Shown here piece by piece: positions 3 through 53,046 of a stretch of DNA of 64,000 nucleotides (position 1 is the stretch's first letter; every line of letters begins with the position of its first letter). The position numbers and the translations under genes were made by a program. Under the pieces are notes generated by a model, which was not told the DNA's origin, did not search any database, and saw only the letters and a program-made list of their open reading frames with translations. This DNA comes from Cytobacillus oceanisediminis 2691 (GTDB lineage Bacteria > Bacillota > Bacilli > Bacillales > Cytobacillaceae): contig NZ_VEEP01000001.1 in assembly GCF_007678455.1 (NCBI RefSeq), forward strand, positions 496,001-560,000, given 5' to 3'.

Positions 3-890
3 CAGGGTGTAGCCTCTCTATTAGGAAAAGACATTGATGGACTTAAAAAAATTCTAGGCAATCCTTCCAGGGTTGACCTATCAGCTTATGGTTTTCATTG
101 GTGGATCTTCAACAACGCCCCTGATCAATATATACAGGCTGGTGTCCTGAATGACAAGGTTGTGACAGCCTTTGGGATTGGTCCAAAGGTGGATGTACTG
201 CCATTTAAAATTGGGCAGCCGATCGAAGAGATTTTTTCTATGAATGTAATAGAACCAGAAGTAACATTCGAATACAATGGCAGCTCTTACAAGTTTGAGC
301 TATCCGAACAAGATATGAACACAAGGCCAGTCATTAAGATGGGTGACTACTTCGTACAGCTTTATATCGATAAATTCACAAGTTCCGTATCCAGCATCCG
401 ATATATGGACAAGGAAACCATTATTAAACAACGGCCATATGAAATGGTCTACAGAGGGACGCTGATCGAACCTCCAGTGTTATCCGAAGGTGACTGGGTC
501 AGGATTGAAGCAGGACTGGAGAAACAGATTCTCGACATAACCAATGCCATCAGATCGAGACATGAGCTCCAATTACTTGAGTGGGACGAAAAAACGGCTG
601 AGGTCGCTTATGCCCACAGCAAAGATATGGCAATCGAAGACTATTTTTCTCATGAGTCGGAAAAGTACGGTGATCTTTCAGAAAGACTAAAAGCAGCTGA
701 AATATTATATGAAGTGGCCGGGGAAAACATCGCAGCGAACTATACAGATGCTCCAGCGGTTGTAGAAGGCTGGCTGAATAGTGAATCCCACCGTGAGGCA
801 CTATTGAATGAAGACTTCTCACATCTTGGGGTAGGGGTATATCAAAAGCATTATACCCAGAACTTTTTGAAAATGTGGAATCAACAGTAA
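3..890 (+). CDS. ylbC: YlbC-like CAP/SCP-domain protein, 5' end outside window
   Basis: The frame is open from base 3, so the gene starts upstream and 295 codons are visible (B. subtilis YlbC is about 346 aa). The first half looks like the CAP-associated N-terminal domain (HWWIFNN near residue 33). The last 115 residues are a CAP/SCP (PR-1-like) domain with its HSKDMA, GENIA and SHREALL motifs, whose His and Glu residues line the family's cleft. The family is usually extracytoplasmic, but the signal region is not in the window. Synteny with ylbD-ylbE-ricF supports the name. The molecular function of YlbC is not known to me. Confidence 0.85.
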   Translation, partial: QGVASLLGKDIDGLKKILGNPSRVDLSAYGFHWWIFNNAPDQYIQAGVLNDKVVTAFGIGPKVDVLPFKIGQPIEEIFSMNVIEPEVTFEYNGSSYKFELSEQDMNTRPVIKMGDYFVQLYIDKFTSSVSSIRYMDKETIIKQRPYEMVYRGTLIEPPVLSEGDWVRIEAGLEKQILDITNAIRSRHELQLLEWDEKTAEVAYAHSKDMAIEDYFSHESEKYGDLSERLKAAEILYEVAGENIAANYTDAPAVVEGWLNSESHREALLNEDFSHLGVGVYQKHYTQNFLKMWNQQ

Positions 891-1018: not shown

Positions 1019-1590
1019 TAAAACTGTCCGAACGAGAGGCACCTTTGGACAGCTTTTGTGGTTATCGTTGAAAAGCAGTCTGAACTGGAGGCGAGTTCGG
1101 ACAACTTTTGTGGTTATCGTTGAAAAGCTGTCCGAACTAGAGTCACCTTCAGACAACTTTTGTGCTTCCAGGTGAAAAGCTGTCCGAACTAGAGTCACCT
1201 TCGGACAACTTTTGTGCTTACAGGTGAGAAGCTGTCCGAACTGGAGGTTACTTCGGACAACTTTTGTGCTTACAGGCGAAAAGCTGTCCGAACCAGAGGC
1301 ACCTTTGGACAGCTTTTGTGGTTATCGTTCAAAAGCAGTCTGAACTGGAGTCACCTTCGGACAACTTTTGTGCTTATAGGCGAAAAGCTGTCCGAACCAG
1401 AGGCACCTTTGGACAGCTTTTGTGGTTATCGTTGAAAAGCAGTCTGAACTAGAGTCACCTTCGGACAACTTTTGTGCTTCCAGGTGAAAAGCTGTCCGAA
1501 CCAGAGGTTACATTGGACAGCTTTCGTGTTTACCGTAGAAAAGCTGTCTAAACTAGAGACTACTTGTGTCCACTATTGTGCAAACAGACA
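1019..1590. repeat. 52-bp tandem repeat array A, 11 units
   Basis: Eleven consecutive units start at 1019, 1071, 1123, 1175, 1227, 1279, 1331, 1383, 1435, 1487 and 1539, an exact 52-bp period. Most units have the inverted repeat AAAAGCTGTCC ... GGACAGCTTTT (or GGACAACTTTT) around a 16-17-base centre, so each can fold as a hairpin, followed by a linker of two types (GTGGTTATCGTTG or GTGCTTACAGGCG). Units 1331/1383 back to 1279 show a 104-bp higher-order duplication (1279-1382 resembles 1383-1486). The last unit is degenerate. All frames give short spurious ORFs because 52 is not a multiple of 3. The same family recurs inverted at about 25372-25790. Confidence 0.95.
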
Positions 1591-1687: not shown

Positions 1688-1728
1688 ATAAAAAAACTGC
1701 AGAAAACTCGGTTGTCTACAGTTTAAAA
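1688..1728 (-). terminator. Rho-independent terminator of the minus-strand pair
   Basis: Read on the minus strand, ACTGTAGA and TCTGCAGT form a stem that is followed by a run of seven T. It lies just past the 3' end of the 118-aa minus-strand gene. Confidence 0.7.
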
Positions 1729-1746
1729 GCCACACTGATATGTTCT

Positions 1747-2103
1747 TTAGTCTTTCCTGACCACTCTGTTGATGGAAAAGTAGCCATGCTTCCAGTTTCC
1801 ATACAGATGCACCAGTTCCCCTTCACTGAAGGTGGGAGGGACTGCTCCTTTTCTTAGAGGCGTTACCTTTTTTACCGTCAATTCTTTTAATCCGGTGTTG
1901 ATTTTCAAAACAGTCACATGGTTGAAGCGATGATAGTAAAAACGTTCTTTGTGTTCATGGATTTCAATGATTTTTCCGCTGACGATTGCTTCTTCTGGAA
2001 TTTCCTCCAGACCAATCCATTCCTGTTCATTTCGCTGCATCTCTTTTTTTGTCAGCCAATAAAAATAGGCAAGGATTATTGGAATCGCAATTGCTGTAAC
2101 CAT
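1747..2103 (-). CDS. Uncharacterised single-pass membrane protein
   Basis: This 118-aa protein has one hydrophobic segment at residues 2-16 (AIAIPIILAYFYWL), then a charged domain rich in beta-type sequence (EIHEHKERFYYHRF, GELVHLYGNW). It is probably anchored by its N-terminus. The ATG at 2103 has an AAGGGGAT ribosome site, and the gene starts 11 bp after the thioesterase gene on the same strand, so the two probably share a transcript. I do not recognise the family. The pair interrupts the B. subtilis ylbC-ylbD order. Confidence 0.75.
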   Translation of the reverse strand: MVTAIAIPIILAYFYWLTKKEMQRNEQEWIGLEEIPEEAIVSGKIIEIHEHKERFYYHRFNHVTVLKINTGLKELTVKKVTPLRKGAVPPTFSEGELVHLYGNWKHGYFSINRVVRKD

Positions 2104-20991: not shown

Positions 20992-21097
20992 GGGTGAAAG
21001 TGCAATTTTTACAGGTGTTGGTGCAATTATTTAGGGTGAAGGTTCAATTGTCGAGGGTGACAGTGCAATTACTATTACTATTGATTTCAGTGCAATT
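20992..21097. repeat. 21-bp period direct repeats with a GTGCAATT core
   Basis: Four units start at 20992, 21013, 21034 and 21055, exactly 21 bp apart, each with (A/G)GGTGAAAGTGCAATT or a close variant. A fifth core, GTGCAATT at 21090, is 27 bp on. Cores are at 21000, 21021, 21042, 21063 and 21090. The set lies in the 339-bp gap between the bshC terminator and mraZ. The 5-bp flanking parts are variable. No protein frame is supported. Confidence 0.85.
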
Positions 21098-25332: not shown

Positions 25333-25371
25333 GTGTTTAGTATTTGAAGCAATCAGACAAAACCCATCCGG

Positions 25372-25790
25372 CAATCACAGAAATTATCCGAAGCAGTCAT
25401 AGGTTCCGACAGCTTTTCGCCTGTAAGCACAAAAGTTGTCTGAAGTAGCCTCAGGTTCGGACAGCTTTTCGTCGGTAAGCACAAAAGTTGTCCGAAGCAG
25501 CCACAAGTTCGGACAGCTTTTCGCCTGAAAGCACAAAAACTGTCTGAAGTAGCCTCTAGTTCGGACAGCTTTTCAACGGTAAGCACGAAAGTTGTCCGAA
25601 GCAGCCACAAGTTCGGACAGCTTTTCGCCTGAACGCACAAACTGTCTGAAGTAGCCTCCAGTTCGGACAGCTTTTCAACGGTAAGCACGAAAGTTGTCCG
25701 AAGCAGCCCAGGGTTCAAACAAAACCTCACAGTCAATCACAGAATTTGTCCAAAGTAACCCTGGTTCAGCCAATCCCCGTCACTGACCTT
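25372..25790. repeat. 52-bp tandem repeat array B, about 7-8 units, inverted relative to array A
   Basis: GACAGCTTTT cores at 25408, 25460, 25512, 25564, 25616 and 25666 are 52, 52, 52, 52 and 50 bp apart. Degenerate units lie at both edges, each with CAATCACAGAA and TCCGAAG or TCCAAAG. The unit is the reverse complement of that at 1019-1590: GTTCGGACAGCTTTTCGCC then TGTAAGCACAAAAG. Stop codons occur on the plus strand; a 127-codon minus-strand frame is a product of the repeat. The array occupies the pbpB-spoVD gap. Confidence 0.93.
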
Positions 25791-52662: not shown

Positions 52663-52738
52663 TGGGTTCGTGGCAATCCCTATGAAATTCACGAGTTGAA
52701 AGCTGGAAATTGGAAAAAATCAGTGAAAATTTCCAAGT

Positions 52739-52850
52739 CGCCAATAAAAATCGGTTTTCGCCAATAAACTGTGCATTATCGCCAATAAAATAAATTTTCC
52801 GCCAATAAAACATTGAAAATCGCCAATAAAAATATTTTTTCGCCAATAAA
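52739..52850. repeat. 20-21-bp period direct repeats with a CGCCAATAAA core
   Basis: Six copies of CGCCAATAAA start at 52739, 52759, 52780, 52800, 52821 and 52841, spaced 20, 21, 20, 21 and 20 bp. The 10-bp cores are identical and the 10-11-bp spacers are AT-rich and variable. They lie in the 384-bp gap between the DksA-like gene and lspA, the rest of which is AT-rich without a gene or clear terminator. Frames across the repeats are not supported as genes. Confidence 0.93.
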
Positions 52851-53046
52851 CAAACCGTAATTTAATTTCTGGGAAAATCGAGATAAAAACCTCCAGTTTC
52901 CAACTGAATATTTCAATTTGCATATGTTAAACCAGTGTAGAATGCGAGCAACAATACTAAAACTGATAAAATCTGTAGTTTTGACCGCAGATGTGCTAAA
53001 ATGCAAAGGTGATATATGAATTGCTTTTGATGTGGAGGGTACCTTT

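Follow-up and report, generated by a model that had tools for sequence, protein, structure and literature searches.

Tandem repeats of 52 bp in Cytobacillus oceanisediminis and the TGTC-N19-GACA frame of related arrays in the Bacillales

The array and its neighbours

The window, that is, the whole stretch of DNA analysed here, comprises 64,000 bp of contig NZ_VEEP01000001.1 of Cytobacillus oceanisediminis 2691 (positions 496,001 to 560,000). Close to its left end, between a plus-strand gene for a CAP domain protein and a minus-strand open reading frame (ORF), lies a tandem array of eleven units of 52 bp, and a second array of the same family is found further to the right. The features are listed below in window coordinates; the arrays and their cores are given without strand.

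3..890, plus strand: left neighbour, a CAP_assoc_N / CAP domain protein whose gene starts outside the window (ORF list, Pfam)
1020..1590: tandem array of eleven 52-bp units, the last of which decays at about 1568-1590 (Tandem Repeats Finder, TRF, and frame read-out)
1025..1051: unit 1, inverted-repeat core, TGTC-N19-GACA (frame read-out, as for all cores)
1077..1103: unit 2, core, AGTC variant
1129..1155: unit 3, core
1181..1207: unit 4, core
1233..1259: unit 5, core
1285..1311: unit 6, core
1337..1363: unit 7, core, AGTC variant
1389..1415: unit 8, core
1441..1467: unit 9, core, AGTC variant
1493..1519: unit 10, core
1545..1571: unit 11, core, right half-site decayed to GTCC
1693..1724, minus strand: candidate intrinsic terminator for the gene on the minus strand, lying on its array side (fold -11.6 kcal/mol, T tail)
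1747..2103, minus strand: right neighbour, a 118-aa ORF with no Pfam family at E <= 0.001 (ORF list, Pfam)
25368..25721: second array, same family, 7 units (TRF 25368-25708; unit chain 25385-25721)

The eleven units at a 52-bp period, as given in a preliminary description of this DNA, are confirmed: TRF reports 1020-1558 with period 52, 10.4 copies, 79% matches and 0% indels, and the half-sites stand at 1025 + 52n, as TGTC in eight units and as AGTC in three. GACA lies 23 bases past the start of TGTC or AGTC in 10 of the 11 units, with GTCC in the eleventh. In other words, the frame of the unit is TGTC (or AGTC), 19 bases, GACA and 25 bases. When the arms are taken as 14 bp, 126 of the 154 pairs in the eleven units are Watson-Crick, 8 are G.T and 10 are A.C. 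The outer arms read mostly AAAAGC before the core and GCTTTT or ACTTTT after it, and AAAAGCTGTC is present together with its reverse. The centre of 16-17 bases described earlier holds for the 11-base arms used at that time (about 17), whereas 14-bp arms leave 11 bases. The same 1020-1558 stretch gives 86% matches at period 104, and units 6 and 8 are 0.98 identical and units 7 and 9 are 0.96 identical; the alternating linkers and 104-bp duplication noticed before thus describe a part of this array, but they are not a rule. Among 98 arrays with at least eight units, lag 2 exceeded lag 1 in 42, strongly in 9, and amplification by 104-bp dimers was rejected as a general mode.

The array is non-coding: the ORFs of 60 aa or more that cross it are all short, with 84 aa at most, and 52 bp is not a multiple of three. 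On its plus side, a strict scan found no terminator, and a looser scan lists 964-985. In the second array, the outer arms read in the opposite direction, and one step measures 50 bp. Two further tandem arrays in the window, of 21 bp (20992-21071) and 20 bp (52738-52852), belong to another published size class.

A frame within the published 52-nt class

The preliminary description recognised no named repeat family at this place. A class of such repeats had in fact been in print since 2020-2021, the "52-nt tandem repeats" of Subirana and Messeguer, whose earlier paper on them is said to have appeared in J. Bacteriol. in 2020. The window array falls into this class by its length (within 51-53 nt and at least four repeats; period 52, 10.4 copies), by being non-coding, by the many same-size families of different sequence in one genome and by short signals that often occur with their reverse. 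According to the accessible text of PMC8161180, 1886 of 4029 repeats in 176 Bacillus genomes measure 51-53 nt; their authors describe a constant size, no sequence conservation and many families per genome, and leave the function open between nucleoid proteins and small RNAs. The same text lists B. selenatarsenatis and relatives with many families, and its Table 2 gives an alkalitelluris signal, AAAGCTGTC, which, like family 71_52_7, corresponds to the window motif. As an object, the window array is a new member of the published class. What sets our observations apart from the account in PMC8161180, as far as its accessible text goes, is the common TGTC-N19-GACA frame, together with the covariation, the matching of base-pair classes and the GC wave described below. 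A literature search, with subscription journals mostly outside its coverage, found no publication that explains the 52-bp size; judging by these searches and by the accessible text, neither the frame nor the class matching nor the wave has been published.

To put numbers on the class, we used 2.4 Mb of contiguous sequence, made up of 400 kb each of the window genome (G000), G008, G010 and G005 and 800 kb of G402 (H. coagulans 36D1). Among the 124 TRF arrays of at least three copies there, 84 have a period of 51-53, with many different consensi. The frame was searched as TGTC-N19-GACA-N25-TGTC-N19-GACA, a pattern of 16 fixed bases that is blind to all others. It matches 69 of 397 genomes of the order (seven of them with a single match) and 30 of 135 genera, and the arms, loops and linkers differ among the genomes that carry it. 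The window genome alone has 523 exact matches to this two-unit frame against none for the pattern written backwards, which among the genomes listed occurs only once, in G012. In a sample of the phylum, 2 of 398 genomes match, both of the window's genus. By BLAST, the window array itself has 51 matches in its own genome, and matches to it occur in 19 of the 21 genomes of the genus. Match counts to the frame vary widely within genera. A three-unit frame is found in at least 110 stretches of named genomes, and the matches listed include Mesobacillus, Neobacillus, Litchfieldia, Cytobacillus, Robertmurraya, Heyndrickxia, Caldibacillus, Ureibacillus, Evansella, Virgibacillus and Trichococcus. Inspection by eye of Table 1 in the accessible text of PMC8161180 shows the frame in several consensi as well, namely coagulans 2_52_35 and 8_52_18, litoralis 42_52_9, thermoamylovorans 30_53_11 and alkalitelluris 71_52_7, with oceanisediminis 79_52_5 one base off. 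The frame is not universal: some of the 84 arrays of period 51-53 in the 2.4 Mb lack TGTC, among them the CTACGT family of H. coagulans and a 53-bp CATAAGGG family. In H. coagulans, locus L228 5250-6420 (G402 C1:485250-486420) holds CTTCACATAG-N7-CTACGTGAAG repeats of 10-7-10 geometry and 52-bp period; they are without TGTC and adjoin a TGTC array.

With genes called by a simple longest-ORF rule, 211 arrays fall into 101 co-directional, 52 convergent and 23 divergent gaps, and 35 are without a gene call on one side. The position between convergent genes, a feature of the preliminary description, is therefore correct for the window array and not typical, being found in 52 of the 176 arrays with a gene call on both sides. 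A preference for convergent gaps seen in the first set (46 of 155 against a background of 97 of 553) was dropped after the 2.4 Mb gave 15 of 53 against 324 of 1571 (p 0.17). Arrays in co-directional gaps are placed closer to the upstream stop (66 versus 35, p 0.003). A terminator candidate stands between the upstream stop and the array in 55 of 88 testable co-directional gaps (13 being too short or too long). On the other side, 3 of 80 testable gaps have one between the array and the gene that follows, with 21 excluded by their length; for convergent arrays, 40 of 88 testable flanks have one. Outside arrays, about 2.3 Mb contain 2 solitary cores with matching arms; most wrong spacings give 0-1.

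Array size and sequence can change at one place. Within a species, the same locus measures 539 or 749 bp between flanks of 97.6-98.9% identity, and matching loci of other species sometimes differ in arm family, as in L021, G010 and L134, which hold three families. L021 1333-2532 (G000 C433) is a 53-bp CATAAGGG array joined to two TGTC units, and its counterparts in G010 and L134 are GTCAT and CGTTAG arrays. The flanks of L128 (Mesobacillus boroniphilus) are 83-89% identical to those of another array locus of the window genome. Carriage by phages or plasmids was rejected, with no match in either. The sole match in a viral-contig collection, L188 3495-3700, is probably host DNA at a contig edge, because its left flank is 89% identical to the bacterial locus L154. 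Bacillar arrays also occur in L086, L134, L153 and L154 (titled Chryseobacterium sp. ISL-80) and in L117 (Sedimentibacter sp. SX930); the ISL-80 title is probably wrong, because L134 matches a locus of the window genome at 92-96% identity in its flanks.

Symmetry, rates of change and helical phase

For covariation, one unit was taken per array from 154 arrays (151 distinct), and the first 145 were analysed. With a 10-bp stem and a 7-base centre, 86.3% of the cells are paired, and 280 cells have changed on both sides. The arms covary as an inverted repeat: the covariation is 0.436, compared with 0.128 in shuffled sets (reached in 0 of 500) and at most 0.156 in slid versions, and it comes from the six inner pairs, TGTC/GACA being constant by the choice of units. 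In the same 145 units, the both-side-changed pairs and further pair types were not above shuffles. Uncompensated arm changes and a lack of other copies, which had been named beforehand among the signs of an inert minisatellite, were not what we found; the arms covary across species and the copies are many.

Compared over 1527 pairs, neighbouring units change least in TGTC/GACA (0.035), followed by the arms (0.104) and the next four bases (0.143); the loop (0.254) and the 17-bp linker (0.252) change most. The arms and TGTC/GACA therefore change 2.4-7 times more slowly than the loop and linker, with the constancy of TGTC owed in part to the choice of arrays, many of which were fetched with a TGTC pattern. 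Because the units had been found by TGTC, a split-half control was run, with the phase taken from the first half of TRF arrays and the rates from the second (34 arrays, 128 pairs); it gave 0.050 for TGTC/GACA, 0.106 for the arms, 0.136 for the next four bases, 0.257 for the loop and 0.267 for the linker. Among steps of 50-54 bp, 1520 of 1591 are exactly 52, which is an upper estimate of exactness because the chaining rewards 52, and neighbours spaced by 52 differ at 17% of their bases. Where unrelated arm families meet (six joins), the spacings are 52, 52, 104, 104, 208 and 51. In L066 and L185, the linker is similar across the join and both arms change, so that exchange through similar linkers could also keep the register.

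The two sides of the dyad match in another way. At 5 bp from the dyad, the left and right positions agree in base-pair class (G/C versus A/T) in 209 of 210 array consensi, where 0.59 is expected, and in 73 of the 210 the two bases are identical. The agreement is 0.99 in 120 non-redundant consensi and 0.96 at the level of units. At 15 bp, the class agrees in 188 of 210 (expected 0.53), with identical bases in 0.51. The kind of pair at 5 varies with the arms: CGAA-type arms have it identical in 45 of 65 arrays, complementary in 19 and G.T in one; TTCAT-type arms have it complementary in 46 of 46 and identical in none; and in the other 100 it is identical in 28 and complementary in 72. In the 27-mer of those 45 CGAA-type arrays, positions 9 and 19 (for example 1033 and 1043 of the window), directly inside the arms, form a conserved mismatch of identical bases, mostly C..C or G..G. 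An inversion of the loop relative to the arms, suspected from these columns, was rejected: none of 1309 units shows it, and C-class loops resemble G-class loops no better when these are inverted (0.413) than when they are direct (0.437).

Substitutions between neighbouring units that keep the class (A<->T, G<->C) make up 0.50 of changes at 5 bp, 0.36 at 6, 0.49 at 15, 0.40 at 16 and 0.37 at 26, against a background of 0.235 at positions that we chose ourselves (0-4, 7, 8 and 18-24); the array bootstrap intervals lie above it. The class matching is blind to the orientation of the base pair, and such blindness is typical of contacts in the minor groove. The distances 5, 15.5 and 26 would lie one helical turn apart, and at TGTC, 10-13 bp from the dyad, it is the major groove that would face the same side. 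It should be mentioned that class-keeping changes also reach 0.40 at 11 and 0.50 at 13 (98 and 94 cases), inside TGTC/GACA, and this does not fit neatly with a major-groove contact there.

Averaged over 121 non-redundant arrays, the GC content has maxima at about 0, 10 and 21 bp from the dyad and minima at about 6, 16 and 26. The fifth harmonic of 52 holds 0.28 of the power, or 0.63 without TGTC/GACA, with a phase coherence of 0.97. When the 10-bp arms are left out and each of 83 groups (33 with a genus name or code, some perhaps of the same genus) contributes one profile, the best period in a scan of 6-20 bp is 10.4 bp, with a coherence of 0.89 and an amplitude of 2.73, against at most 1.98 in 2000 column permutations; these columns still take in bases next to TGTC/GACA that are partly conserved. 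The wave is weaker when only the 24 strictly variable columns are used (coherence 0.70 overall and 0.66 for 22 named genera). Among 15 harmonics, the fifth is the largest there (p 0.0 in 5000 permutations), but the amplitude at 7.2 bp (1.54) equals that at 10.2-10.4 bp (1.55 and 1.51), so that these columns alone do not fix the period. The coherence is 0.41 for the loop alone and 0.61 for the 17-bp linker alone.

Single arrays are noisy. Among 75 with at least four copies, harmonic 5 leads in 15 of 39 TGTC arrays, in 4 of 28 period-52 TRF arrays not scored as having the TGTC frame (three of the four have a consensus that contains TGTC or GACA and are perhaps mis-scored), in 4 of 7 53-bp arrays and in the one 51-bp array, compared with 6% of 1729 random stretches. 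It leads in none of the CTACGT-type arrays of H. coagulans. Of 30 TRF rows for arrays of 20-21 bp, some of which overlap, 22 have the two-turn harmonic in the lead. Taken alone, the window array does not show harmonic 5 significantly (share 0.056, permutation p 0.23), although its phase agrees to 0.3 bp; the second array has p 0.08 and a phase that agrees to 0.4 bp.

What may hold the frame

The strict half-sites, the positions that keep only the base-pair class, the dyad symmetry, the five-turn spacing and the GC/AT wave would all be expected from a protein on one face of the helix. The preliminary description had proposed that a period of 52 bp, close to five helical turns, reflects a protein-binding or structural constraint, and the covariation, the rates, the class matching and the wave speak for this. 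A two-fold site on duplex DNA should have symmetric half-sites at a fixed spacing and a constraint that follows the grooves, and all of these were found, with the class-keeping changes at 11 and 13 bp as the point that fits less neatly. The reading that we prefer, with about an even chance of being right, is that selection acts on duplex DNA through protein binding to two-fold sites that lie on one helix face with five turns per unit. Since 52 bp is 5 x 10.4, all sites of a row would face the same way. A dimeric DNA-binding protein would recognise TGTC/GACA through the major groove to the left and right of the dyad, with minor-groove contacts at half a turn and at one and a half turns from it. 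The array would then be a platform coated or bent by such proteins, probably with a role in local nucleoid or topological organisation. Since the arms vary even inside a single genome, no single protein that reads the arms can serve every array; the different arm classes would call for several related proteins or for one that tolerates various arms. The frame, the covariation, the slow half-sites and arms, the fixed length beside a variable loop and linker, the class matching and the wave are shown by the sequences; the action of a protein, its identity, the acting together of the units and their biological role are things that we infer. Among the points against protein sites are that solitary cores are no commoner than wrong spacings, unlike ordinary operators, that the window array alone does not show harmonic 5 and that the CTACGT-type arrays of H. 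coagulans do not have it in the lead.

There is a real, if minor, chance that the arrays are instead a selfish or neutral satellite, in which unequal exchange sets the copy number and homogenises the units and template switching by the polymerase keeps the arms complementary. The copy number that differs at one locus within a species (539 versus 749 bp), the arm families that sometimes differ at matching loci of other species and the occurrence of units in arrays and not alone are as such a satellite would have them, and the register could come from exchange via similar linkers, as in L066 and L185. Template switching is reported to homogenise inverted-repeat arms in the accessible texts of PMC8604942 and PMC8794818, and it may contribute to the arm matching. 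However, a neutral satellite does not predict slow half-sites beside a fast loop and linker, nor a dyad-phased GC wave and joins of arm types in register, nor identical bases beside complements at fixed distances, since template switching gives complements; the loop inversion that it does predict is absent from all 1309 units. It is less probable still, although curvature would account for the AT-rich positions at about 6, 16 and 26 bp, the GC-rich ones at 0, 10 and 21 bp, the GC wave and the two cycles per unit that lead in 22 of 30 TRF rows of the 20-21-bp arrays, that the DNA is intrinsically curved without a dedicated protein, its phased AT-rich minor grooves serving as a static bend or supercoil sink. 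Such a bend leaves the strict TGTC/GACA and the matched arms unexplained, and we regard it as quite improbable.

An element acting as RNA, that is, a transcribed string of hairpins serving as a sponge, regulator or stabiliser, as Subirana and Messeguer discuss, seems improbable as well. RNA-seq hits are given for H. coagulans families including 2_52_35 and 8_52_18, which by eye bear the frame (accessible texts of PMC8625621 and PMC8161180), and both strands of the window array fold better than shuffles (z -5.2 and -7.8). If the stem acted as RNA, G.U should be favoured over A.C on one strand. In a first wobble test, which took in 91 co-directional arrays and stem positions 4-14, there were 172 G.T versus 130 A.C (p 0.018; per array, 43 versus 28, p 0.096), but this bias disappeared with more arrays and inner arms only: positions 4-9 of 101 co-directional arrays have 116 G.T versus 107 A.C (39 versus 32 arrays, p 0.48). 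Such counts can be biased by composition alone, and a control slid by +5 indeed gives 105 versus 170. Within arrays there is no one-sidedness (41 arrays, p 0.90). A terminator candidate mostly precedes the co-directional arrays (55 of 88) and rarely follows them (3 of 80), and no Rfam model reaches its gathering score inside the arrays of the window stretch and ten further loci, whereas riboswitches reach it outside them. An RNA hairpin is thus disfavoured, and the word "hairpin", applied to the units at the outset, is doubtful, because the strand tests gave no RNA-hairpin signal and the identical bases at 5 bp on either side of the dyad (73 of 210 consensi) cannot pair.

Returning to protein sites on one helix face, we may carry the thought further, to a satellite chromatin in which hundreds of sites per genome are coated or wrapped along one face by a protein conserved in the Bacillales, with the 20-21-nt class as a two-turn version. 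This extension is tentative and, in our estimate, rather unlikely. Five helical turns would set the 52-bp length, TGTC/GACA would be read in the major groove and only the base-pair class in the minor groove, and the loop, linker and arms might drift while the rotational phase might not. The published puzzle that our preferred reading addresses is why different bacilli carry repeats of exactly 52 bp but of differing sequence, and the answer proposed is the frame together with the helical repeat: the length would be conserved because the rotational phase is. If the preferred reading is right, the repeats would be an unusual bacterial case, chromosome-wide and encoding a shape of DNA and not a gene, an RNA or a single operator.

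REP elements and BIMEs are dispersed intergenic palindromes, with more than 100 copies per genome, regularly spaced in composites, and they are protein-binding sites; BIMEs alternate in orientation, and REPs also occur singly. The 52-bp arrays resemble them as dispersed intergenic palindromes with over 100 copies per genome and regular spacing. Unlike them, the 52-bp units run head to tail with no alternating orientation in the arrays inspected, and their solitary cores are no commoner than wrong spacings (2 versus mostly 0-1). CRISPR arrays share the direct repeats, the regular period and the inverted-repeat character, but in a 52-bp array the linkers recur as well, and every part of the unit diverges; Subirana and Messeguer likewise distinguish the 52-nt repeats from CRISPR (accessible text of PMC8161180). 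The AT/GC periodicity at the helical repeat recalls the prokaryotic nucleosome-positioning signals and A-tract periodicity treated in the accessible text of PMC3940949, with the difference that the wave of the 52-bp arrays is tied to a palindromic frame that is repeated in tandem.
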